NCBI RefSeq assembly: GCF_014279755.1
Contig: NZ_CP047951.1
Coordinates: 248,001-312,000, forward strand
Origin: Synechococcus sp. PROS-U-1
GTDB taxonomy: Bacteria; Cyanobacteriota; Cyanobacteriia; PCC-6307; Cyanobiaceae
Reading direction: 5' to 3'
DNA: 64,000 nucleotides
This document shows, piece by piece, positions 39,893-51,732 of the stretch. Under the pieces are notes generated by a model, which did not search any database, had not been told where the DNA came from, and worked only from the letters and a program-made list of their open reading frames with translations. Made by a program: the position numbers and the translations under genes. The stretch's first letter is position 1. Each line of letters opens with the position of its first letter.

Positions 39893-41362
39893 GTGACCGT
39901 CGCCCCCGCCCGCAGCTACGACCGCAGCGACTGGTCCAGTTCCTTCGTCAATGTGGAGGAGGAGCTCACCGATGTGGCCTTAACGCCGGTGCGTGGAAGG
40001 GTTCCGGTGGAGCTTCAGGGCACCTTCTACCGCAATGGTCCCGGGCGTCTTGAGCGGGCTGGTCATCGTGTGCATCACCCCTTTGACGGCGATGGCATGA
40101 TCGCGGCGATGCGGTTTGAGAGCGGCAGCGTCCAGCTCAGCAACCGCTTTGTGCGCACCGAGGGCTGGCTGGCGGAGGAGAAGGCCGGCAAGGTGCTTTA
40201 TCGGGGCGTGTTCGGTAGCCAGAAGCCCGGTGGTCGTCTGGCCAATGCCTTCGATCTGCGTCTGAAGAACATCGCCAACACCAACGTGGTGCGCCTTGGC
40301 GATCAGCTGCTCGCCCTCTGGGAAGCTGCGGAACCCCATGCGCTGGATCCCCGCAGCCTGGAAACCCGGGGTCTCTCTCGGCTCGATGGTGTGCTGAAAA
40401 AGGGTGAAGCCTTCAGTGCTCACCCCCGCTTCGACCCCGGCCACAACGGTCGTCCCTGCATGGTCACCTTCGGGGTGAAGACAGGGCCCCGCAGCACCAT
40501 CCGTCTCATGGAGTTCGCCACCGATGGCCCTGAGGCCGGCGCGTTGCTGCATGACCGTTCCGACAGTTTCCCCGGTTTTGCCTTTCTGCACGACTTCGCT
40601 ATCACCCCCAACTGGGCGGTGTTCCTACAGAACGCCATCGCTTTCAACCCTCTGCCTTTTGTGACCGGCGAAAAGGGTGCGGCCCAGTGCCTGGCCTCTC
40701 AACCCGGTGGCAAGGGGCGTTTTTGGTTGATCCCCCGCGACTCCGGTCGTTTTGCCGGCCAGAAGCCACGCATCCTCGAAGCCCCAGATGGCTTCGTTTT
40801 CCATCATCTCAATGCGTTTGAGGACGGCGATCACGTGGTGGTGGAGAGCATCGTCTACGACGATTTCCCGTCCATCGGCCCCGATGACGACTTCGCCCAG
40901 GTGGATTTCGACACGGTTCCGGAGGGAATCCTTCACCGTTGCCGCCTCGACCTCAGCCGGGAATCGGTGCAGACCGAGCGGATCAGCGAGCGCACCTGCG
41001 AGTTCGCGATGGTCAACCCCGAGCGTCAGGGGCTCAGCGCTCGCTATGCATGGATGGCGGTGGCTGAGCGGGAGACGGGCAATGACCCCCTGCAGGCCAT
41101 CCAGAAGCTTGATCTGGACTCCGGTGCAACCCACACCTGGAGTGCGGCGCCCCGTGGCTTCGTGAGTGAGCCGCTGATGGTGCGTCGCCCCGGTGCTGAA
41201 GCCGAGGACGACGGTTGGGTGCTGGATCTGGTCTGGAACGGAGCCCGGGCCGCATCTGATCTGGTGATCCTCAACGCCCGTGATCTATCGGAGGTGGCGG
41301 TGCTGGAGCTGCCGTTGGCCGTGCCTCATGGTTTGCATGGCAGCTGGGCCTCGGCAAGCTGA
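39893..41362 (+). CDS. carotenoid cleavage oxygenase
   Basis: Non-haem iron dioxygenase cutting carotenoids or apocarotenoids, 489 residues. All four iron-ligand histidines are in place: SAHPRFDPG, FLHDFAITP, FHHLNAFEDG and VPHGLHGSW. N-terminal RNGPGRLER with HHPFDGDGMI is also typical. Substrate (beta-carotene, zeaxanthin or an apocarotenal) cannot be told from sequence. No rhodopsin gene is in the window, so retinal supply is speculative. GTG start at 39893 behind a small hairpin; 60 bp after hisB. Confidence 0.93.
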   Translation: MTVAPARSYDRSDWSSSFVNVEEELTDVALTPVRGRVPVELQGTFYRNGPGRLERAGHRVHHPFDGDGMIAAMRFESGSVQLSNRFVRTEGWLAEEKAGKVLYRGVFGSQKPGGRLANAFDLRLKNIANTNVVRLGDQLLALWEAAEPHALDPRSLETRGLSRLDGVLKKGEAFSAHPRFDPGHNGRPCMVTFGVKTGPRSTIRLMEFATDGPEAGALLHDRSDSFPGFAFLHDFAITPNWAVFLQNAIAFNPLPFVTGEKGAAQCLASQPGGKGRFWLIPRDSGRFAGQKPRILEAPDGFVFHHLNAFEDGDHVVVESIVYDDFPSIGPDDDFAQVDFDTVPEGILHRCRLDLSRESVQTERISERTCEFAMVNPERQGLSARYAWMAVAERETGNDPLQAIQKLDLDSGATHTWSAAPRGFVSEPLMVRRPGAEAEDDGWVLDLVWNGARAASDLVILNARDLSEVAVLELPLAVPHGLHGSWASAS

Positions 41363-41392
41363 CCGTCAACGGTTGCTTTGGTTGTGCGGCCC

Positions 41393-42100
41393 ATGCGTCG
41401 AATGTTGCCCTTCGAAAGGATCGCCTTGCCCGTTGCCTCCATGGGCCTCCTTTTGTTGTCTTCGATGGGTCCCGTGCTGGCCCATGAGCCGTCCTGTGCT
41501 GGGACGTTGCTGCAGGTGTCTGTTGTTGAGCAGGGCTCGACCGTTGTGGCCCGTTTCCGTTTCTCGTTGGTCGTGTCTGGCGAAGGCCCCACTGAGCAGG
41601 CTGCATTGACGCAGCTGAATCAGCGCCTGGCCCGGTTGCGTCAGTCGCTCCAGCCGTTCATTCAGGGACGCCTCACTGTTCCCTCTCCCTCCACTTATCC
41701 ACGCTCTGGGAGCAATGGGGCAAAGACATCCTTCATGGCCAACACCGGTGTCTCCGGTGAGGTGAATCGCCAGATGTACACCCAATTCATTCAAGCGGTG
41801 GGCGGGCAACCCGGCGTTCGGATGCAGGGGATGGAGTCCATCGCCAATGCACAGGCCGAGGCAGCACTGCGGCAACGCTTGACGGCTGCGGCACTGCGGC
41901 AAGGCAAAGCTGAGGCCGACAGCACCGCTGCGGCGATCGGAGCGACCCGTGTGCGGATCTTCAGGATCAATCGCAGTGATTCGATTCGGGGTCCCCGGCG
42001 GGTTCAGCTGTCGGGGACCATGAGCTCTGGTTTCGATCCCAGTGAGGCCCCGGAGCCAACCGCAACAGCGCGGATGGAACTCCATTACTGCCTCACATAG
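41393..42100 (+). CDS. exported SIMPL-domain (DUF541) protein
   Basis: 235-residue protein with an N-terminal signal peptide (PVASMGLLLLSSMGPVLAHEP, cleavage after Ala). The mature part fits SIMPL/DUF541 domains: VVARFRFSLVVSGEGPTEQAALTQLNQRLARL, then a beta-rich C-terminal half with IGATRVRIFRINRSD and an ending HYCLT. SIMPL proteins are cell-envelope proteins of poorly known function. ATG 41393 preferred; GTG at 41384 also possible. It lies 30 bp after the oxygenase gene. Confidence 0.75.
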   Translation: MRRMLPFERIALPVASMGLLLLSSMGPVLAHEPSCAGTLLQVSVVEQGSTVVARFRFSLVVSGEGPTEQAALTQLNQRLARLRQSLQPFIQGRLTVPSPSTYPRSGSNGAKTSFMANTGVSGEVNRQMYTQFIQAVGGQPGVRMQGMESIANAQAEAALRQRLTAAALRQGKAEADSTAAAIGATRVRIFRINRSDSIRGPRRVQLSGTMSSGFDPSEAPEPTATARMELHYCLT

Positions 42101-42112
42101 CCTGCTGATACC

Positions 42113-43198
42113 TTGAGTTCTCAAGCTGGGAATCTGGTGTCAACTGCATTCACACGTCCGCAGATCAATCGTGACGAGCGGATGCTGTGGATCCATGCGG
42201 GTCCCCACAAGGCAGCCAGTAGCTACGTCACCGAGCGGCTCCGCCAAAACCGGGGAAACCTGGCCGCCCAGGGTGTGTTGATGGATGGGGATGACAACTG
42301 TCTTGCCAATGCGATTGCTGAAAAGAGATATGAGCCTGTCGAGGAGGTTTTGGCCACGCTCCCTTCCTCATTCCACAGGGTTTTGCTCAGCAGTTCGTCT
42401 TTGGATGATCGGATTCTTAGTCGAACTGTCTTGGGCAGATTGCAGGCCCTGGTTGAGCGTCAAGGATTCAAATTAGGCGTTAGTTATTTCATTCGAGATC
42501 AGCAGTCTTGGTTGAATTCGGTGTATGCGCACCGGGTTCGACGATTTCGTGAAACGCCTGATTTTGAGCAGTATTGTGATTATATTATGTGTGATTCCGA
42601 GTCATGGAATATTGCTTATCCATCTAAATTTCGTGTTTTAAGTCGCTTCCCGTCGATTGCGACGTTGTATCTCCCCCTCTCCAAGCAGGTGGCGATTGCG
42701 GATCCGTTCCTTGCGCTGGTTGACGCCTTGGGTCTGGGCACTCCAGCGGGTCAAGAAGGCTGGCTTGCGGGCCGTTCCTCCAAGCAGAACATTCAGCCCG
42801 GAGCTCGCGGAATCTGGATGTCGGCCCTCTGCCGTCGCTTGATGGTGGACACGGGTTTCGATCCGGAATTGCTCAAGCGGAAGGGCAAGGTCATCCGTGA
42901 TCTCGCCATTGAACGTGGCTGGGATCGGGAGAAGTTCGATGGCTTTGATCAACAGCTTCAAGACCGCCTGTCGGCCTTTTATGCCAGCTCTAACGAGGCT
43001 TTTGCACAGGAGCACTGGGGCGTGAGTTGGCAAAGCCTCTTCCCCGCGCGACCTGCTGTTCAACGTGTGTATGTGGGGCCTCAGAGCGAGGTGGATCACA
43101 AGGAGATGCGAGCTCTGATGGTTCGCGTGTTGCGCGAGTTGCGTTTTCCCTGGCGGTTGCGGCGTCGTTTCTTCTCTCTTTACGACGCCGCTGTGTGA
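42113..43198 (+). CDS. sulfotransferase-like protein of unknown substrate
   Basis: 361-residue soluble protein. The N-terminal segment LWIHAGPHKAASSYVTERL (from about residue 25) matches the 5'-phosphosulfate-binding loop of PAPS-dependent sulfotransferases (G-x2-K-[AG]-[GA]-[ST]-[ST]), and the 3'-phosphate region could be VSYFIRDQQSWLNSVYAHRVRRF, with the usual Arg-x-Pro replaced. Hence a sulfotransferase-like nucleotide-binding protein is likely and activity uncertain. TTG at 42113 is the first start; ATG at 42182 (LWIHAG) is a plausible alternative. The central part, about 42300-42660, is AT-richer than its ends, a mosaic sign. Confidence 0.6.
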   Translation: MSSQAGNLVSTAFTRPQINRDERMLWIHAGPHKAASSYVTERLRQNRGNLAAQGVLMDGDDNCLANAIAEKRYEPVEEVLATLPSSFHRVLLSSSSLDDRILSRTVLGRLQALVERQGFKLGVSYFIRDQQSWLNSVYAHRVRRFRETPDFEQYCDYIMCDSESWNIAYPSKFRVLSRFPSIATLYLPLSKQVAIADPFLALVDALGLGTPAGQEGWLAGRSSKQNIQPGARGIWMSALCRRLMVDTGFDPELLKRKGKVIRDLAIERGWDREKFDGFDQQLQDRLSAFYASSNEAFAQEHWGVSWQSLFPARPAVQRVYVGPQSEVDHKEMRALMVRVLRELRFPWRLRRRFFSLYDAAV

Positions 43199-43210
43199 GG
43201 GCGGCTCAGC

Positions 43211-44776
43211 TCAGCTGAGGCCCTCGCGCTTGGCCTCTTTCCAGGCCAGCCTTGGCGCTGACCAAAGGGTTGCCAGCACCAAGGGCGTGACAGGAACCGC
43301 AGCAATCACAATGAAGGCCTGAAGGGCGTTGATGGATGTGGGATCAGTCAGGCTGGAGCCGACCCGGAGCAGCACCAGCGTGAGGCTGCCGATCATGAGA
43401 GCCCAGAAGAGGCGGAGTGGTGCTGGGGGTTCATCCCGGCCGCTCACCACCATGGCTGCGGCATAGCTCATCGAGTCGGCGCTGGTGCACATGAACAGCA
43501 CCACCAGCAAAAGACCAATTGGAATCAGAAGTCCCGACAGCGGAAGCTGGCTGAGGATTGTCAGCAAGGTGGATGCGGCGGCATTGATGCCGTCGCTCTC
43601 AAGTGCACTGGTGATGTCCTTACCGTTCAGGTCTAGATACATCCCTGTTCCACCCACAAGCGTGAACCAGAGATTGGTGACCAGTGGGCAGAGAATGGCG
43701 ACCGCAAGCACTAATTCCCGGATGCTGCGTCCACGGCTCACCCCGGCGGTGAATAGGCCCATCAGGGGTGCGTAGCCGAGGAACCAGCCCCAGTAGAAGA
43801 TCGTCCACCAGTTGAGCCATTCGCCGGTTTGGGCATTGCGAGGAAGGAGGGCCATCTGGGGGAGATGAACCACATTGCTCAGCAGTGCGCTGAAGAAGTG
43901 TTGGATCAGCCAAAGTCCAGGGCCCAGAAGCAGCAGCCCAGCCGCCAGGGCGATGGTGAGCCACACGTTGAGCTCCGACAGCCATTTGATGCCTTTCTGA
44001 ATGCCGCTGACGGTTGATGTGGCGAACACGGCAGTGAGTAGGACCACCACGAGCGATTGCAGACCAGCACTGTTGGTGAGCCATGGCAGTTTGCCGGCAG
44101 CATCGCTGAGCTGAAGGGAGAGAAACCCAAGCGGCCCAACGGTGCCGGCGATGGCTGCGACCACTGAAAGCCCATCTGCGAGATCTCCGATGGGTCCGTC
44201 CACCCACCCCCTTGGCAGCACAGTGACCAAAAGGGTGCGGGGGCGAAGGGGTTCACCACGCCGCTCAAGAATCGAGAAGGTGATGGTGGTAGTGGTGGCG
44301 ACCAGGGCCCAGGCGAGGAATCCCCAGTGCAGAAAACTCACGGCCAGGGCTGGATCCACGGCCGCAGCCGTTTTCCCCTCAACCCCTGCTGCTTGAAATA
44401 GAGGGGAAGGGGTGAGGTAGTGAAACAGCGGTTCGGCTGCTGACCAGAACACGCCACCGCCGGCGAGCAGGGTGCAGATCAATACTGCACACCAGTCAAA
44501 GAACTTGAAACTTGGTTTTGCGTTCTCACCCCCCAGTCTGAGCTTCCCGACAGGGCTAACTGCGATGGCCAGCGCGATCAGGAACAGCAGCAGCACCATC
44601 CACTGCCAGAGCCCACCGAGCAGCGTGCTGATCAGTGTTTGGCCCTGATCGGTGAACTTTTTGGCCAGGGCCAGGTCGATGGCTGACACCACCAGGAACA
44701 CCAGCAAAGGGCCTGCTCCCACCCATAGCGGTGGTTGGCGCCACCAGGGGCGAGGGGAAGAGGGGGATTGCGACAT
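43211..44776 (-). CDS. BCCT-family betaine/choline-type transporter
   Basis: Secondary transporter of the betaine-carnitine-choline family, 521 residues, 12 predicted membrane helices. The signature region WWTIFYWGWFLGYAPLMGLF (323-342) and VSRGRSIREL (346-355) match BCCT; helix 3 AGGGVFWSAAEPLFHYLTPSP (105-125) also fits. Relative to BetP, the aromatic-box Trp374 position is Phe332 and the next conserved Trp is Tyr335, so the substrate may not be glycine betaine. Last gene of a four-gene operon after an NikD/sarcosine-oxidase-like enzyme (36 bp apart), an amino acid dehydrogenase and a SABATH methyltransferase. I infer it carries the operon's product. Confidence 0.9.
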   Translation of the reverse strand: MSQSPSSPRPWWRQPPLWVGAGPLLVFLVVSAIDLALAKKFTDQGQTLISTLLGGLWQWMVLLLFLIALAIAVSPVGKLRLGGENAKPSFKFFDWCAVLICTLLAGGGVFWSAAEPLFHYLTPSPLFQAAGVEGKTAAAVDPALAVSFLHWGFLAWALVATTTTITFSILERRGEPLRPRTLLVTVLPRGWVDGPIGDLADGLSVVAAIAGTVGPLGFLSLQLSDAAGKLPWLTNSAGLQSLVVVLLTAVFATSTVSGIQKGIKWLSELNVWLTIALAAGLLLLGPGLWLIQHFFSALLSNVVHLPQMALLPRNAQTGEWLNWWTIFYWGWFLGYAPLMGLFTAGVSRGRSIRELVLAVAILCPLVTNLWFTLVGGTGMYLDLNGKDITSALESDGINAAASTLLTILSQLPLSGLLIPIGLLLVVLFMCTSADSMSYAAAMVVSGRDEPPAPLRLFWALMIGSLTLVLLRVGSSLTDPTSINALQAFIVIAAVPVTPLVLATLWSAPRLAWKEAKREGLS

Positions 44777-44812
44777 GGATTTCTGGGGAGGGAGCGAGGC
44801 GCGGATGTGGAT

Positions 44813-46003
44813 TTAGGCGCGGACAGCGTCGCGTTGGTGGCTCCAGCAGGACAGGTCCACCGCAGGTTGTTCGTTGCTGGCGAGGCGTGCCAGAGAATCG
44901 CCGATCAGGGGAGCGAACTTGAAGGCCTGGCCGGAACCTCCTGCGAACAGGCTGAGCTTCGGGGTGAGCCGATCCAGTACGAAGTTCACGTCGCTGGCCA
45001 TGGAATATGGGCTGATCACGGTCTCCACTCGCTCCTGAACTCCCTCCAGTTCGTTGAACAGGAAGGTGTCGAGCAGCTCCACCAAGCGGGCCGGTGGTTC
45101 GGTGGCCATGGCGTTGGGTGCGGCCACCCGCAGCTCCCTTGGGGCCCAGTCGATGCCGGCTTTGATCCGAGGCCGGCCATCCGCCGTTCGGCTCAGCACG
45201 GGGAAGCCGTAGTACAGGCCGCCGTCATCGCCCCGTTCCTGCTGGAAGCAGAACCACTGGGGATAGCGATCGGCAAGTGCCGGGTCGACGGTGTAATGGG
45301 CCCAAAGCATTGGCCACACCTCGAGTTTCGGTGCCAGGCCGAGGGGAGCCAGCAGCAGCTGGCTCCAGATCCCGCAGGCCACAACCAATTGGCCGGCGGC
45401 AATGTGCTTGCCGTTCTCGAGGGTGACGCCTCCACCATCCGGATCGAGGCCCGCCACGGGGCAGTGCTCAATCAGCTGATGGCCGGCGTTGCGGGCGGTG
45501 TTGATCCAGTGGGCCACGACCCTGTCGCTGCGCACGGCACCTGCGGTGGGTTCGAACAGGCCGGTGAAGCCCGCCTTCGGCTTCAGCGGAAAACGGGCTG
45601 AGATTTGTTGGGCATCAAGGGCCTCATAGGGGATGCCCTGATCGTCCATGACGCGACGGGCCCCGGGGATGGATCCCTCGATCGTCTCTTCATCCCAGCT
45701 TTCGCCATAGAAGAGAAGACCGTGGGTTTCCCGCAGCTGTTCGCCGGCATGACTCTCCTCCTCTCGCCAAAGACGATTGGCTTCCTGGGCCAGACGGCAG
45801 AGCACCGGGTCGGAGTACATCTCCCGGAACATCCTGGTTTCGCCGTAGCTGCTGGCCTTGGCGTGGGCCAGGGTCTGGGCTTCCAGCAGCACCACATCGC
45901 GCACGCCGCGGCGGGCGAGGGATGCAGCGCAGCTGAGGCCCGCCATGCCGCCGCCGACGATCACAACCGCCGCGCTGCTGGGCAGGGAGGACGGAGTGCT
46001 CAT
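44813..46003 (-). CDS. FAD-dependent amine oxidase of the monomeric sarcosine oxidase/NikD family
   Basis: 396-residue flavoenzyme: FAD motif VVIVGGGMAGLS (13-24), MSOX-type SSYGETRMFREMYSD (51-65), the oxygen-activating lysine in GRPRIKAG (Lys281), and the C-terminal GGSGQAFKFAPLIGD (355-369). The position of the covalent FAD cysteine of MSOX and NikD aligns with Ser331 (SPYSMASD), so the flavin is probably not covalently held. Families: sarcosine oxidase, N-methyltryptophan oxidase, pipecolate oxidase, and NikD, which turns piperideine-2-carboxylate into picolinate. It overlaps the dehydrogenase gene by 4 bp. A NikD-like role is inferred from the operon. Confidence 0.88.
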   Translation of the reverse strand: MSTPSSLPSSAAVVIVGGGMAGLSCAASLARRGVRDVVLLEAQTLAHAKASSYGETRMFREMYSDPVLCRLAQEANRLWREEESHAGEQLRETHGLLFYGESWDEETIEGSIPGARRVMDDQGIPYEALDAQQISARFPLKPKAGFTGLFEPTAGAVRSDRVVAHWINTARNAGHQLIEHCPVAGLDPDGGGVTLENGKHIAAGQLVVACGIWSQLLLAPLGLAPKLEVWPMLWAHYTVDPALADRYPQWFCFQQERGDDGGLYYGFPVLSRTADGRPRIKAGIDWAPRELRVAAPNAMATEPPARLVELLDTFLFNELEGVQERVETVISPYSMASDVNFVLDRLTPKLSLFAGGSGQAFKFAPLIGDSLARLASNEQPAVDLSCWSHQRDAVRA

Positions 46004-47055
46004 TCGTTGTCTCCGAAGCTCAGGCCGATGGGTTCGGTGGAGGGTGTCGCCGCCACTTCCTCGAGGGCGGCACCAGCTGACAATCCCTGCTCGCGCTGAT
46101 TCAGGTAGTCGCTGGCCCGCCGCCGTACTTCATCCCGGACGAAGGCATAGACGTCCTTGGCGCCGGCGTCTTTCCAGGCATCGGGGGAGAACCGTTCGAT
46201 CGAATCGGCGATGACGGCGCCGGCATTCACCAGGGGGTCGGGCAGCACCCGCACACCGCGACGACGCAGGTCATCCGCCAACTGGGGTTGCTGAAAAGGG
46301 GCATTGGCTGCAGGCACCACGGCGGGGGTCCGCAGCGCCGTCGCCATTTCGGCGTTGATCAACCCGGAGATGGAGCAAGGCAGCATCAGGTCGAGGTCAA
46401 GTTCCCACCAGGGGCAGCTGTCCGGCAGAGGGGTCGCACCGGGGAAACTGGCTTTCCCACGATCCAGATCCACGGTGAACACCGTCCATCCGTGATCGAC
46501 CAGATGGCGTGCCACCGTCCCGCCGACGGCGCCGCAACCATGCACAAGGGCTCGGCCTGGGCTGGCGTGATCGAGGTCCTTTTCCAGCACTGCTTCCACG
46601 GCGCCGAGAGTGCCATGGGCCGTGGCTGCACTGGCATCGACCGGGCTTCCCACCGCCGCCAACACATGGGGGGTGAGCGCCGTTAGACGCTCCATGTCCC
46701 CAAGGGTGGTGTTGAGATCGCAGCCCGTGATCATGGCGCCATCGAGCGATTCCAGCAGCTCAGCGGTGACGCTGATCAGTTCATCTTTCACCGCATCGGG
46801 TTCAGCGGCCCTGGCGACGATCTTGCCGCCGGCGAAACCGGTGCCGTAGAGATCGTGCTTGTTGGTCATCAACCCCGCAAGGCGTTGTCCGTCAGCAATG
46901 CAGGCCTCATCGCTGGGGTAGTTGAGCAAGCGCAGGCCCCCGTTGGCGGGGCGCTTGGCATCAGTGTCTTCCGCCACAACGAACACCGAGAGGTGATCGG
47001 AGACGTGTTCCGCCAGCACCGACACGGTCGGTGCTGTTTTCTTGCCGGTGCTCAT
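46000..47055 (-). CDS. Glu/Leu/Phe/Val-type amino acid dehydrogenase (leucine dehydrogenase-like)
   Basis: NAD-dependent amino acid dehydrogenase of 351 residues from ATG 47055. Substrate-domain lysines Lys66 (MTNKHD) and Lys78 (AGGKIV) and the catalytic Asp113 (GCDLNTT) align with the active site of leucine dehydrogenase. The Rossmann domain has GCGAVGG (173-179), an NAD-preferring Asp near 196 (TVDLD), and PLVNAGAVIAD. The substrate is not readable; in this operon I infer oxidative deamination of lysine at the alpha carbon to piperideine-2-carboxylate, a reaction known as lysine dehydrogenase EC 1.4.1.15. Overlaps the methyltransferase stop (ATGA) and the oxidase start by 4 bp. Confidence 0.88.
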   Translation of the reverse strand: MSTGKKTAPTVSVLAEHVSDHLSVFVVAEDTDAKRPANGGLRLLNYPSDEACIADGQRLAGLMTNKHDLYGTGFAGGKIVARAAEPDAVKDELISVTAELLESLDGAMITGCDLNTTLGDMERLTALTPHVLAAVGSPVDASAATAHGTLGAVEAVLEKDLDHASPGRALVHGCGAVGGTVARHLVDHGWTVFTVDLDRGKASFPGATPLPDSCPWWELDLDLMLPCSISGLINAEMATALRTPAVVPAANAPFQQPQLADDLRRRGVRVLPDPLVNAGAVIADSIERFSPDAWKDAGAKDVYAFVRDEVRRRASDYLNQREQGLSAGAALEEVAATPSTEPIGLSFGDNE

Positions 47056-48092
47056 CAGACCACTTTCTCCATCATCTGGTGGTGTTCGACGTAGTCGAGG
47101 CTCCATTCGCTGGGGTCTTCGGAGATGCGCTGCTGCAGACGCTCGTACACCGTGTCTGCAGCGCTGTCACCGGCAGCACTTGCGAAGCTGTGGCGGCTCC
47201 AGCTGCGGATCGTCGCCATCAGACCGGCGGCGAAAGCAGCCGTGTCACCGTTCTCGTTCCAGCGGCGTCGGTACGGGCACTTCACATAGACCGTGCGCTC
47301 GTCCACGAGGCGCAGTCCGTTGCGGTAGGCGGGGCTGCTCTCGTCCTTCAGCGGAGCCATGAACTCCTCAGGGGACTTGTAGAAATTCAGAACGGTGCCT
47401 TGTTTGTATTGCTCCGCGTTAATCAGGCCTTCCTCAGCCATGGCGTGCCAGATCTGGTGCAACTGGTCGTGCACATTGCGGGTTTCGCCGCCGTTATGAC
47501 CGAGATAACGGCCTTCGCCATCACGGGAGAGGTTCACCGTCAGCAGTCGCCCGCCCACCTTCAGCTCGCGGCTGCGCAGTTCGAGGACGTGGTTCCAGTC
47601 CTTCATCGCCTGGGCGGTGAAACGCTGAAGGGCGTCGGCATCTCCTGAGGCCAGCACGTGGGTGTGGCTGTCGAGTGGTCCGGGAGAGGCGCTCAGCCAG
47701 TGCATGGCGGTCGCGGAGAAGCCGAAGCTCACGCTGTCCGGGGCCACGGAGGGTTCGTAGAAGCTGCGGGCACTCACCAGCACTGTTGGCTTCGGATCAC
47801 GGGGGATCTGCAAGGCCAGGTTTTCAGCCAGAGCAAGGTTGTCGTTGCTCGGTAAGTCGTTACCGATCAGCGTCAGGTGAGCATTCGGCTGGTTGGCATG
47901 CAAGCGATCCAGCACTTCATTCCAGAGCCCCACGGCAGTGCCTCCATCGGCAGCTCCGTAATCGATCAGGACATGGCTGTCTGCGACAGCCAGTTGATTC
48001 ACACAAGTCAAGGCCCAGTCCGAGGCGGCTTCAATGCACAGAAGAGCGCCTTCGGTCTGCGCGCTGTAACCCGTGGTCATGGCGATGGCCAT
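47055..48092 (-). CDS. SABATH-family SAM-dependent methyltransferase
   Basis: 345-residue methyltransferase, first gene of the operon. SABATH marks: SAM loop VLIDYGAADGG (41-51), GNDLPSND (77-84), the FSATAMHWLSASPGP motif (125-139) that equals plant SSYSLHWLS, and ELKVGGRLLTVNLSRDG. SABATH enzymes methylate carboxyl groups (salicylate, jasmonate, indole-acetate) or ring nitrogens (caffeine, theobromine, and in coffee nicotinate to trigonelline). A ring-N methylation of picolinate is my inference. ATG at 48092 or 48080 (4 codons in) could be the start. Follows rdgB after 69 bp with no visible terminator, so read-through from pgm-rdgB is possible. Confidence 0.9.
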   Translation of the reverse strand: MAIAMTTGYSAQTEGALLCIEAASDWALTCVNQLAVADSHVLIDYGAADGGTAVGLWNEVLDRLHANQPNAHLTLIGNDLPSNDNLALAENLALQIPRDPKPTVLVSARSFYEPSVAPDSVSFGFSATAMHWLSASPGPLDSHTHVLASGDADALQRFTAQAMKDWNHVLELRSRELKVGGRLLTVNLSRDGEGRYLGHNGGETRNVHDQLHQIWHAMAEEGLINAEQYKQGTVLNFYKSPEEFMAPLKDESSPAYRNGLRLVDERTVYVKCPYRRRWNENGDTAAFAAGLMATIRSWSRHSFASAAGDSAADTVYERLQQRISEDPSEWSLDYVEHHQMMEKVV

Positions 48093-48161
48093 GGACCTCG
48101 TCAGCGGCAGGTCTCACCGTACAGACCATGTCCCGGGGCCCTTTGTATCCGTGGTTCTTCT

Positions 48162-48743
48162 TCAGGATGCTTCGAGCAACTGACGCAGTTTGGGTTCCAG
48201 CAGGGTGAAGGCCTTGCCGCGGTGGCCGTGCTGCTTTTTCTCCGCCAAAGGCATCTCGGCGAAGGTGCGGCCGGTTCCAGCGACTTCGAAGATTGGGTCG
48301 TAGCCAAAGCCTTGATCCCCCCGGGGAGATGCTGTGATCAAGCCGTCGCAACGGCCTTCCACCTCCAGCAGGATCGTGCCGTCTGGCGCGGCGATGCAGA
48401 GGGCGGCGCAGAAATAGGCCTCGCGTTGGTTCGATCCCTTCAGGGCCTTCAACAGTCGTGCAATGCGCTCTGGATCGGTGGGGGCGTAGCGGGCGGAGTG
48501 AACGCCAGGGGCGCCATCAAGGGCATCAACGCTGAGGCCTGAATCGTCGGCCAAAGCCCATTCGCCTTTTGCAGCTGCAACGGATTGGGCTTTAAGACGG
48601 GCATTTGCAGCAAACGTGGTGCCTGTTTCCTCCACCTCCAAGCCCTCAGGCTGGGGGCACACGGTGACGGGGACGGCCTGCAGCAGACCCTGAAATTCAC
48701 GAATTTTTCCGGCGTTCCCGCTGGCGATGACCAGTGTCTTCAT
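48162..48743 (-). CDS. rdgB: XTP/dITP diphosphatase
   Basis: Housecleaning enzyme that removes ITP, XTP and dITP. 193 residues: IASGNAGKIREFQGLL at the N terminus, ETGTTFAANARLKA, ADDSGLSVDALDGAPGV, and DQGFGYDPIFEV, all typical of RdgB/HAM1. The ATG at 48743 overlaps the mutase stop by 4 bp. Confidence 0.96.
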   Translation of the reverse strand: MKTLVIASGNAGKIREFQGLLQAVPVTVCPQPEGLEVEETGTTFAANARLKAQSVAAAKGEWALADDSGLSVDALDGAPGVHSARYAPTDPERIARLLKALKGSNQREAYFCAALCIAAPDGTILLEVEGRCDGLITASPRGDQGFGYDPIFEVAGTGRTFAEMPLAEKKQHGHRGKAFTLLEPKLRQLLEAS

Positions 48744-50203
48744 GCGGCCTCTGCGAACTGCCTGGCCCAGGCCAGCACTGCATCCACCCGATCAGCATCC
48801 GGACCTTCGCAGTAGAGGCGCAGCAGAGGTTCGGTGCCTGAAAAGCGCAGCATCAGCCAGTGACTGGGCCCCATCCTCAGTTTGATCCCGTCTGTGGTGA
48901 TCACGTCCAGTACCTCTACGCCTGCGACGGTCGAAGGTGTGCTCTGGGCCAACAGGGTCTCGAGCCTCCGGCGTGCCTCCATGTCAGCCAACCGCAGGTC
49001 GAGGCGGTCGTAGTGGCTGCTGCCTCCGTGCTGCTGCTGAAGAGCATCCAGCCGAGCTCCCAGGGGTTGTTTGCCTTCTACAAGGGCTTCCAGCACCAGC
49101 ATCGCCGCGAAGAGTGCGTCCCGCTCGGGCAGGTGCATGCCAAAACCGACACCACCAGATTCCTCGCCGCCGATCAGCACGTCCCCCACCAGCATCTCTG
49201 CGGCGATGTATTTGAAGCCCACTGCGAGCTCAAGAACGTCGCGCCCCTGGGCTTCCGCCACCAGCCGCATCAGATCTGAGCCGCTGACGGTCTTGACCAC
49301 CGTGCCCGGCAGCTGCCGGGCACGGGCCAGGTGATCGATCAACAGGGGCATCAGGAGCTGGGTGCTGCAGAACCGACCGGTTTCATCCACGGCGGCGATG
49401 CGATCACCATCGCCGTCGAACACCAGCCCTACGGCGGGAGTCCCGGCGGTTGTTGAGGCCTTGACCGAAGTGATCAGTTCTGCGAGGTAAGGCGCCAGGG
49501 GTTCCGGCGGATGACCACCGAACAAAGGGTTGCGATCGCTGCGGATTTCCTCAACCACTCCATGGGCGTCAGGGCCAAGCAGTTCCGTCACACACCCGGC
49601 CGCTGATCCGTGCATCGGATCCACGATCACCTTCAGGTTGATGGCCTTGAGGCCGCGCACCAGTGCGGGGAGGTCCAGCTTGCGCCGCAGACCCTCAAGA
49701 TGCTCACCGCGACCATCAAAACGGGGGACATCTGCCTTGATCGGTGCCGTGATGCCGCCGGCGGCCAGGCGTCGTTCCACCGCGGCGGTGAAGTCTCCCT
49801 CGACCGATCCACCGAAGGGGCCCTTGATCTTCAGCCCCAGCCACTCCGGCGGGTTGTGACTGGCGGTGATCACCAGAGCTCCCAGGGCTTTGCGCTCCAC
49901 CACGGCCCAGCTGCAGGCGGGTGTGGGGACAGCGGTGTCTGTCAGCAGAGGCTCGAGTTCACAACCCCGTACGGCGGCAGCGATGGCTTCCCCAAGTTCG
50001 GGGGCAAGGAAGCGCCGGTCGTAACCGATGACCACCGTTCGGCTGTTGAGGCCCTCTGGTGCGCGATGCGCGAGCTCCTGGGCAGCGGCAGCGGCAACGG
50101 GTAAGAGCCGTTCCACCGTGATGTCGACGCCGATGATTCCGCGCCAGCCATCGGTGCCGAACTTGATCGGAGCTGGGCTTAGGGGGAGGGGAGCCGACGC
50201 CAT
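48740..50203 (-). CDS. phosphoglucomutase/phosphomannomutase family protein
   Basis: Alpha-D-phosphohexomutase of 487 residues, interconverting sugar 1- and 6-phosphates. N-terminal IKFGTDGWRGIIG; active-site phosphoserine loop ITASHNPPEWLGLK; metal-binding loop DGDGDRIAAVDETGR; sugar loop GGEESGG; phosphate loop RFSGTEPLLRLYCE. Substrate could be glucose, mannose or glucosamine phosphate; the sugar-nucleotide genes nearby would need glucose 1-phosphate. Overlaps rdgB by 4 bp. Confidence 0.92.
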   Translation of the reverse strand: MASAPLPLSPAPIKFGTDGWRGIIGVDITVERLLPVAAAAAQELAHRAPEGLNSRTVVIGYDRRFLAPELGEAIAAAVRGCELEPLLTDTAVPTPACSWAVVERKALGALVITASHNPPEWLGLKIKGPFGGSVEGDFTAAVERRLAAGGITAPIKADVPRFDGRGEHLEGLRRKLDLPALVRGLKAINLKVIVDPMHGSAAGCVTELLGPDAHGVVEEIRSDRNPLFGGHPPEPLAPYLAELITSVKASTTAGTPAVGLVFDGDGDRIAAVDETGRFCSTQLLMPLLIDHLARARQLPGTVVKTVSGSDLMRLVAEAQGRDVLELAVGFKYIAAEMLVGDVLIGGEESGGVGFGMHLPERDALFAAMLVLEALVEGKQPLGARLDALQQQHGGSSHYDRLDLRLADMEARRRLETLLAQSTPSTVAGVEVLDVITTDGIKLRMGPSHWLMLRFSGTEPLLRLYCEGPDADRVDAVLAWARQFAEAA

Positions 50204-50256
50204 GGCACAGCCTGCACTTCAGTGGATCTAGCAGCTGGCAGCCGTAGGGTCGGCGG

Positions 50257-51732
50257 ATGGGTGACACCCCGCCTGCCGACAACCCCCTCACCGACCGGTT
50301 GCTGCGCAGTTGGCTGCGTTGCCGTCGCAAGGCCTGGCTGGATCGCCACGGGGATCCAGCAGAACGACGCTGGACCGCCCACCGCAATCTTCTGCTCGAT
50401 GACCAGCAGCGGTGTTTTGTGGCGTTGGTGCCCCGAAAACCAGACCATGGCTTGGCCGCTTGTGCTGCTGGTGCCGAGGCCGTTGTGGGTCTGCGGTTGA
50501 AGGGTCTGGGGCCCTCCGGTGAACCCCTGGAGGCGCATCCTCCCCTGCTCCGGCGGGTCAAGGGCCAGAGCCGCTGGGGTGACTTCGCCTACCAACCGGT
50601 GTTGGCACGTCAGGGCCGCCGCACCACCCGGGAACATCAGCTTCCTCTGGCCCTGATGGCTCTGCTCCTCGAGCAGGAGCAACAGGCTGATGTCCCATCC
50701 ATGCTGGTTCTGGGCGGCGGCGGCCGACGGCTGGAACAGGAGCGGGTCCATCTGTCGAACGGCCTGCGCCGACAGCTTGCGGAAGGGCTGCGCAAACTGC
50801 AGGCCGACCTCGAGCGACCGCTCCCCCCTCCCTTGGCGGCCGACCGCCGCAAGTGCTCACTCTGCAGCTGGCGGGTGACCTGCAACGCCGTGGCGGCGGA
50901 GGAAGGACATCTGAGTGAGGTCAGTGGCATCGGGGCCAAGCGGCGTGAAATGTTGCTGGAACTTGGGATTCGCGGTCTCTCCGATCTGGCCGCTGCTGAT
51001 CCGACGCAGCTCGCCGAGCGGATGCAACGCTTTGGGGATCAGCATGGGGAGGTGGCTGCTTCCCTCGTGGCCCAGGCCAGGGCGCAGCGGGATGGTCGCG
51101 TTGAACGTTTGGACGCCGCACCGGTCCTTCCGGAATTGCGCGACTGCCCTGGTGTGCTCCTGTACGACATCGAGTCCGATCCAGATGCCCGTCACGACTT
51201 TCTCCACGGTTTTCTGGTTTTGCCCAGAACTGAAAGTGGGGACTGGGACCTTGCGTCAGTGGCGTATCACCCGATCCTGGCTCTGGCTGAGCACGGCGAA
51301 GCCCGTTGTTGGCTCCGGCTGCAACGGTTGCTCAATCACTATCGGAGCTGGCCGATTCTTCACTACGGGGAAACAGAAAGCCTCGCCCTGAGGCGGCTTG
51401 CTGAGCGGCGGGGCGCTGCTGAGGACGAGCTGCTGCAGCTTCGTCATCGTCTCGTGGATGTGCATGCCCGGGTGCGGCGTCACTGGCGCCTGCCGTTGGC
51501 CAGTTACGGCCTCAAGGCCGTCGCCGGTTGGCAGGGATTTCACTGGAATCAGGCCGGTGCCGACGGGGCCCGGGCGTTGCTGTGGTGGAGGCAGTGGCAG
51601 GGCGATGGTCTCCATCGACGCGGCAACAGGCATGGGCTGCGCTGGATCTTTGATTACAACCGCGATGACTGCCTCGCCACCTGGGCCGTTGCCGCCTGGT
51701 TGCTTCAGCGAGATCAGGGCTCGGGATCCTGA
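50257..51732 (+). CDS. TM0106-family RecB-like nuclease with RNase H-like domain
   Basis: 491-residue protein. N-terminal half resembles Cas4/RecB-type nucleases: an early cysteine (WLRCRRKAWLD) and a later cluster CSLCSWRVTC give the four cysteines of a 4Fe-4S site. The nuclease motif itself is doubtful: after GDFAYQP the usual E-x-K is not clear. A helix-hairpin-helix (VSGIGAKRREMLLELGI) follows, then a C-terminal RNase H-like 3'-5' exonuclease domain with LLYDIESDPD and FDYNRDDCLATW (DxE ... D). Domain order matches the TM0106 family, whose biology is poorly known. Its last 19 bp overlap the convergent ygfZ-like gene. Confidence 0.78.
   Translation: MGDTPPADNPLTDRLLRSWLRCRRKAWLDRHGDPAERRWTAHRNLLLDDQQRCFVALVPRKPDHGLAACAAGAEAVVGLRLKGLGPSGEPLEAHPPLLRRVKGQSRWGDFAYQPVLARQGRRTTREHQLPLALMALLLEQEQQADVPSMLVLGGGGRRLEQERVHLSNGLRRQLAEGLRKLQADLERPLPPPLAADRRKCSLCSWRVTCNAVAAEEGHLSEVSGIGAKRREMLLELGIRGLSDLAAADPTQLAERMQRFGDQHGEVAASLVAQARAQRDGRVERLDAAPVLPELRDCPGVLLYDIESDPDARHDFLHGFLVLPRTESGDWDLASVAYHPILALAEHGEARCWLRLQRLLNHYRSWPILHYGETESLALRRLAERRGAAEDELLQLRHRLVDVHARVRRHWRLPLASYGLKAVAGWQGFHWNQAGADGARALLWWRQWQGDGLHRRGNRHGLRWIFDYNRDDCLATWAVAAWLLQRDQGSGS

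Follow-up and report, generated by a model that had tools for sequence, protein, structure and literature searches.

A four-gene locus of marine Synechococcus that probably encodes a lysine-to-homarine biosynthesis operon

What does a compact block of four minus-strand genes in Synechococcus sp. PROS-U-1 make? The block lies in the window, a stretch of 64,000 nucleotides (positions 248,001 to 312,000 of NZ_CP047951.1, the single contig of 2,576,003 bases that forms the genome), and encodes a methyltransferase of the SABATH family, an amino-acid dehydrogenase of the ELFV family, an oxidase dependent on flavin adenine dinucleotide (FAD) and a transporter of the BCCT family. A sequence-only reading of the window had proposed that this cassette converts lysine to homarine (N-methylpicolinate) and transports it. 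Our analysis found a lysine-to-homarine biosynthesis operon to be the best-supported explanation of the four genes, and a probable one. Gene content, overlaps, co-occurrence, family, fold and active-site composition are the observations, from which we infer every substrate, the methylation of the ring nitrogen and the cargo of the carrier. The broader claim is that much of marine Synechococcus and some Prochlorococcus carry a homarine operon with a new ELFV L-lysine α-dehydrogenase of changed pocket polarity, a NikD-like oxidase that lacks the flavin-linking cysteine and a bacterial SABATH picolinate N-methyltransferase; towards this we lean with less assurance.

We propose a route of four steps. 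The dehydrogenase would deaminate L-lysine oxidatively at the α-carbon with nicotinamide adenine dinucleotide (phosphate), NAD(P)+, and the resulting keto acid would cyclise to piperideine-2-carboxylate. The NikD-like oxidase would take four electrons from this ring, using two O2 and making two H2O2, to yield picolinate, to whose ring nitrogen the SABATH enzyme would move a methyl group from S-adenosylmethionine. The product would be homarine, a zwitterionic compatible solute, and transport by the BCCT carrier across the membrane may serve to recover or exchange homarine or a related zwitterion. In nikkomycin biosynthesis, lysine is converted through piperideine-2-carboxylate into picolinate (PMC4021061), and a related NikD/CrmD-like step has been proposed for an Amycolatopsis cluster (PMC11446937). 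Judged by the literature found, opening the lysine-picolinate route with a dehydrogenase would be novel. Homarine itself is reported to rank with the most abundant metabolites measured in open-ocean particles and to oscillate daily, and the same study states that its sources and sinks are hard to infer for want of genetic information on how it is made and degraded (PMC8269247, 2021). In agreement with the sequence-only reading, which knew of no assigned homarine-synthesis genes, the literature search found none among the papers listed; bioRxiv and most subscription papers lay outside this search, hence it gives no proof of absence.

The three enzymes form one unit. When one set of 150 genomes drawn from the order was searched with each of the three, all of them turned up in the identical 42 genomes. 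The oxidase matched 42 genomes at 1e-30, whereas SABATH matches extended to 43 (42 strong, in addition to G102 at 6e-8) and dehydrogenase matches to 44, comprising the 42, a weak match at 9e-4 (G227) and a genuine lone ELFV gene (G030). The lone dehydrogenase (L052, 10572-11585) is 60 percent identical to the cassette enzyme and keeps the residues Asn38 and Asp284 described below, with no SABATH or oxidase partner within the 20 kb read. Three of the 42 cassette genomes have apparent frameshifts, in the oxidase of G089 and the SABATH gene of G181 and G190, which may be sequencing error or decay. Within the window's genus, 28 of 34 genomes gave a strong oxidase match; the remaining six are four genomes less than 80 percent complete and two of 98-99 percent completeness (G174 and G223), in which none of the three enzymes was found at the thresholds used. 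The SABATH gene matched strongly in 19 and weakly in two of 151 genomes of the window's family, and it is present in 10 of 200 Prochlorococcus genomes (4 of the 66 good ones).

These genome searches covered the class, and other phyla were reached by a SABATH pattern scan of named genomes. The scan returned 42 loci, with two pairs of loci from shared genomes: 31 from Synechococcus, one from Cyanobacteria bacterium TMED177 and 10 from Prochlorococcus (MIT 9201, MIT 9401, HNLC1 and uncultured cells). The nearest SABATH genes among the named records belong to Synechococcus, such as MU1642 at 95 percent identity. The order SABATH-dehydrogenase-oxidase is kept in 40 of the 42 loci, including one (L085) whose contig ends inside the oxidase, and at L104 and L106, the two that remain, the contig breaks off within the SABATH gene. 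Because of this conserved order, a chance grouping of the genes is excluded. The usual Synechococcus arrangement is HAM1-SABATH-dehydrogenase-oxidase-BCCT, HAM1 being present at 27 of 28 named loci of Synechococcus type that include sequence upstream of SABATH and at none of the 10 Prochlorococcus loci. The exception, L085, has no HAM1 within its 526 upstream bases. The enzyme triad of the Prochlorococcus loci has 48-55 percent identity, and neither the BCCT nor the flanking genes gave a match at 1e-10 within the stretches covered. Since the triad occurs there without a BCCT match, it looks as though the enzymes travel together and the carrier is an addition.

Further analysis of the dehydrogenase revealed an unusual pair of residues in the substrate pocket. 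Lys66, Lys78 and Asp113, which we take to be catalytic, are present at all 101 loci, which comprise 74 distinct sequences in the alignment, as is Asp284, and Asn38 is present at 100 of 101, the other being unreadable. Asn38 and Asp284 occupy positions 40 and 294 of leucine dehydrogenase, the register at the second site being set by a Glu three residues on (NAGAVIADSIE versus NAGGVVVSYLE). Leucine dehydrogenase has Leu and Val at these positions, which affect specificity and whose counterparts in glutamate dehydrogenase are Lys89 and Ser380; exchange of the two alone failed to interconvert leucine and glutamate dehydrogenases (PMC2723916). The cassette enzyme matches neither the leucine dehydrogenase pocket nor the glutamate dehydrogenase pocket. 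All 12 cassette dehydrogenases compared have PxNGG together with NAGAVIADSIE. Control ELFV proteins of the class, a set of the 30 best-scoring loci and four picked by hand that leans to glutamate dehydrogenases, have PxKGG in 30 of 34 and PAIGG in one, the first pattern being unmatched in three. A second motif was found in 21 of the 30 PxKGG controls, with Ser at the site in all 21, and the pattern found no second motif in the other nine; three shorter controls (L149, L150 and L151) have Ala at the second site. Given that a carboxylate replaces the carboxylate-binding Lys/Ser pair, this pocket of changed polarity would suit a positively charged side chain, for example that of lysine. The nearest NCBIfam model is tryptophan dehydrogenase ScyB, which the enzyme matches far below the cut-off (97 versus 600 bits).

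Comparison of the oxidase with solved structures, by sequence profile and by fold, points to NikD as its nearest solved relative. A profile of 11 cassette oxidases against solved structures placed NikD first (1.5e-42), ahead of the best sarcosine oxidase (1.1e-36) and N-methyltryptophan oxidase (1.8e-29). A Foldseek search with a moderate-confidence model of the oxidase gave NikD in places 1-3 and sarcosine oxidase in place 4, with the E-values of sarcosine and N-methyltryptophan oxidases close behind. The models of the oxidase and the SABATH enzyme serve for fold ranking only, because they were built from 11-row alignments and have predicted local distance difference test (pLDDT) scores of 71 and 72, respectively. 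In the alignment, NikD residues Arg53, Glu101, Tyr258 and Lys358 correspond to Arg60, Glu109, Tyr265 and Lys362, and Asp276 corresponds to Asp285 by the motif K/R-x-G-x-D/H, HMMER having paired Asp276 two residues off. HMMER also pairs Lys281 and Asp285 of the oxidase with sarcosine oxidase residues 265 and 269, the latter of which is His in the wild type and is named in a PDB title. At the Glu101 site, the displayed monomeric sarcosine oxidase has Ala. Glu109 occurs in all 100 loci, and Asp285 in all 80, that extend to the site in question, and Arg60, Tyr265 and Lys362 are likewise present without exception, some of the 80 or 100 loci coming from the same genome. These five residues belong to the active site of NikD, a subject to which no paper listed in the literature search was devoted.

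The SABATH methyltransferase (METHYLTRANSFERASE) is the sole PF03492 match in the genome. It scores 78.4 bits against a Methyltransf_7 cut-off of 29.8, and Foldseek assigned its model to the SABATH fold. Both profile and Foldseek searches gave the mycobacterial fatty-acid O-methyltransferase 5f2k as the nearest solved structure, followed by plant enzymes whose methylation targets are carboxylates or ring nitrogens. Ala16 aligns with a Gln in the segment YAQNSSYQ of geniposidic acid methyltransferase, and it is Ala at 101 of 101 loci that match at 1e-20. The equivalent residue of SAMT, Gln25, tethers the carboxylate of the substrate. The SABATH enzyme thus appears to lack the usual carboxylate tether, which is compatible with methylation of nitrogen and is no proof of it.

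Heal et al. 2021 reported homarine in both Synechococcus strains tested, WH8102 and WH7803, and the correction to that paper gives intracellular concentrations of up to 18 mM in Synechococcus (WH8102) and ~0.2 mM in WH7803. WH7803 has all four cassette genes as intact open reading frames. WH8102 has a predicted operon SYNW0229-0233, in which SYNW0229 is annotated as BetT (PMC2874817). As this five-gene operon has a BCCT homologue at one end, it is probably BCCT-oxidase-dehydrogenase-SABATH-HAM1, with HAM1 as the fifth gene. Both Synechococcus strains in which homarine has been reported have the cassette, WH7803 directly and WH8102 probably, by way of the operon list, in a comparison of two strains.

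Compared to the enzymes, the carrier is less readily placed in the pathway. It falls below the cut-off of all five listed NCBIfam BCCT models, with 297 of 650 bits for the glycine betaine porter, and matches its best solved family member at 1.6e-48. Its tryptophan box is altered: all three displayed solved porters have Trp at the position of Phe332, and two of them an aromatic residue at that of Val159, whereas every one of the 36 loci extending to these sites has Phe332 and Val159. In the strains UW105 and UW140 (L070 and L072), the BCCT is 96-98 percent identical to that of the window, whereas the adjacent enzymes are 82-89 percent identical and the flanking genes lower, and from this difference the carrier seems to have a separate history of exchange between clades. 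Of the assignments in the homarine reading, that of homarine to the BCCT as its cargo is the least secure, because the Prochlorococcus enzymes stand without a BCCT match and the carrier was apparently exchanged separately. The sequence-only reading is thus partly supported: its enzyme core, with proposed substrates, gained support through co-occurrence, NikD kinship, the dehydrogenase pocket, the SABATH enzyme without its Gln and the locus in WH7803 and, probably, WH8102, and its transporter gained the least.

Several findings weigh against homarine as the product. The Cys321 of NikD is the site of covalent FAD attachment and Trp355 lies beside the substrate; the counterpart of the former, placed by way of the sarcosine oxidase alignment, is Ser331 in 79 of 80 loci and Asn in one, and that of the latter is Gln359 in 80 of 80. 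Since both equivalents are absent, we name the oxidase NikD-like only, and not NikD. In NCBIfam, the oxidase scores best with N-methyltryptophan oxidase, at 191 of 257 bits, and with the monomeric sarcosine oxidase type, at 148 of 480 bits, in each case short of the cut-off. The closest solved relative of the SABATH enzyme is a carboxyl O-methyltransferase. Heal et al. 2021 also found homarine in four of six diatoms and in one Emiliania huxleyi strain. Moreover, WH7803 contains ~90-fold less homarine than WH8102 despite its intact genes, from which it follows that presence of the cassette does not set the amount of homarine. The position of methylation, the ~90-fold difference between strains and the missing genome-matched non-producer are the biggest uncertainties.

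Some of these findings fit a different product made by the same three-step logic, namely an aromatic pyrrole acid formed from ornithine through pyrroline-2-carboxylate, or methyl picolinate formed from lysine through picolinate by O-methylation. The acidic pocket of the dehydrogenase would take ornithine as well as lysine, and the carboxylate-methylating relative of the SABATH enzyme would agree with an ester product. However, the carboxylate-tethering Gln is replaced throughout, NikD acts on piperideine-2-carboxylate, and the locus is found in both homarine-containing Synechococcus strains, one of them by inference, so we consider such a product unlikely. In another order of steps, methylation would precede oxidation and the oxidase would use an N-methyl amino acid, like sarcosine and N-methyltryptophan oxidases, so that the cassette would tailor another N-methylated osmolyte. 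The sub-cut-off NCBIfam matches of the oxidase speak for this order, yet a methyltransferase followed by a demethylating oxidase would be futile, and NikD outranks both oxidase families by profile and, narrowly, by fold; we regard it as improbable.

Two further explanations were considered. A 2010 model of osmoregulation lists SYNW0229 of WH8102 as BetT and SYNW0230-0233 as possible missing transporter subunits (PMC2874817), which would make the locus one for glycine betaine uptake with accessory genes, and membership of the carrier in the BCCT family agrees with this. However, the partner genes encode enzymes, the Prochlorococcus loci hold these enzymes without a BCCT match, and the carrier has the altered tryptophan box and a score far under the betaine-porter cut-off, all of which make uptake of glycine betaine very improbable. 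The remaining explanation has the SABATH enzyme make trigonelline or another pyridine betaine from nicotinate while the dehydrogenase and the oxidase serve another purpose, and we give it the slightest chance of all. It would draw on coffee SABATH enzymes, which N-methylate nicotinate, but it leaves the linkage of the three genes unexplained. Also against it, particles of the transect contained 1-300 pM trigonelline compared to 0.02-2.7 nM homarine after correction (Heal et al. 2021 and its correction). Altogether, a lysine-to-homarine operon accounts best for the locus.

Table 1. Genes of the cassette and the adjoining HAM1 gene (coordinates in the window)
Feature	Coordinates	Strand	Family evidence	Proposed role or remark
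SABATH methyltransferase, 345 residues	47055..48092	-	Pfam Methyltransf_7 (PF03492), 7e-22	Putative picolinate N-methyltransferase, yielding homarine
ELFV-family amino-acid dehydrogenase, 351 residues from the ATG at 47055	46000..47055	-	PF00208 (ELFV_dehydrog, 1e-15) and PF02812	Putative lysine α-dehydrogenase, yielding piperideine-2-carboxylate
NikD-like FAD oxidase, 396 residues	44813..46003	-	Pfam DAO, 1e-44	Putative piperideine-2-carboxylate oxidase, yielding picolinate
BCCT-family transporter, 521 residues	43211..44776	-	Pfam PF02028, 2e-127	Putative zwitterion carrier; altered tryptophan box
HAM1/RdgB-type non-canonical NTP pyrophosphatase	48162..48743	-	PF01725	69 bp upstream of SABATH; no pathway role proposed

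The layout of the cassette was confirmed on the DNA as first described, in positions, strand, overlaps and gap, and Pfam matches likewise supported the four families that had been named (Table 1). On the coding strand, the start of the dehydrogenase overlaps the SABATH stop by 1 bp in a TGATG junction, the dehydrogenase and the oxidase overlap by 4 bp in ATGA, and a gap of 36 bp separates the oxidase from the BCCT gene. The dehydrogenase open reading frame as listed opens upstream, at 47106. In each of six relatives (three Prochlorococcus and three of Synechococcus type), a stop at codon 4 interrupts the longer frame ahead of the matching ATG, and the junction recurs as TGATG or TAATG in the Prochlorococcus loci L096, L100 and L102. 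For both reasons, the ATG at 47055 is most likely the true start. An Rfam search of 41000-51000 gave no match to an RNA element, and a search of 43100-48400 found no sigma-70-like promoter, the sigma-70-like model being uninformative for this organism.

The surroundings of the cassette vary. Directly past the BCCT end, on the opposite strand, an open reading frame of 361 residues (42113-43198) has no Pfam or NCBIfam match and lies near the BCCT gene in some relatives only. The counterpart of 41378-43198, the region between the BCCT gene and a carotenoid-oxygenase-like gene, differs in content and length among Synechococcus strains. The genome G092 (L058) has the four cassette genes with none of the window's flanking genes, HAM1 included, in the 16 kb read, and in both L058 and L085 the cassette lies outside its usual neighbourhood. 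Upstream of the cassette in the Prochlorococcus genomes G215 and G175 stand genes that look TenA- and ThiD-like by their translations.

A range of the cassette beyond the family was considered and, as far as the class-wide genome searches reach, rejected. A class-wide profile search of 291 genomes gave 12 strong hits, all within the family, and three weak ones (G257, G276 and G312; 4e-35 to 4e-28), around which no dehydrogenase or oxidase match was found in the 15-16 kb read for each. The weak hits are distant SABATH domains near the ends of long open reading frames (L111 in G276, L112 in G257 and L113 in G312), and those of L111 and L112 adjoin genes that resemble polyketide synthases, as judged from open-reading-frame translations only. 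Likewise, the stretches read around the weak SABATH matches of G102, G180 and G212 (L060, L114 and L115) hold neither a dehydrogenase nor an oxidase match, and L114 gave not even a SABATH match at 1e-3; G180 and G212 have a full cassette elsewhere in the genome. Carriage by phages was rejected as well, since a pattern scan of viral contigs with the SABATH protein matched six stretches, none of them a relative.

If the homarine assignment is true, the genes would provide a marker by which metagenomes and transcriptomes could show which picocyanobacteria make homarine and when. It would also predict, at the level of strains, homarine in Prochlorococcus MIT 9201, MIT 9401 and HNLC1 and none in close relatives without the cassette. 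Moreover, genes would be assigned to the α-dehydrogenation of lysine.

The cassette shares some features with known systems and differs from them in others. The cassette would share the sequence from lysine through piperideine-2-carboxylate to picolinate with the pyridine branch of nikkomycin biosynthesis, which consists of the lysine 2-aminotransferase NikC and the oxidase NikD, the closest solved relative of the cassette oxidase. They differ in the first step, an aminotransferase in nikkomycin biosynthesis and an NAD(P)-dependent ELFV dehydrogenase in the proposed route; in addition, the cassette product would be methylated by the SABATH enzyme, and its oxidase has no equivalents of Cys321 and Trp355. 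The dehydrogenase shares the ELFV domains and Lys66, Lys78 and Asp113 with leucine, phenylalanine, tryptophan and glutamate dehydrogenases, but has the pair Asn38/Asp284 in place of the Lys/Ser of glutamate dehydrogenase or the Leu/Val of leucine dehydrogenase. Family and fold of the methyltransferase are those of the SABATH enzymes, including mycobacterial FAMT, plant SAMT and IAMT, enzymes of the caffeine pathway and the trigonelline synthases, whereas its identity to FAMT is ~20 percent by Foldseek and Ala16 replaces the tethering Gln. The carrier belongs to the same family as the porters BetP, BetT and DddT and the TMA transporter, and differs from the displayed solved members at Phe332 and, for two of the three, at Val159. 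The same compound is the subject of a bacterial homarine pathway reported by Ferrer-Gonzalez et al. 2026, which is catabolic by its title, whereas the pathway that we propose here would be one of synthesis.

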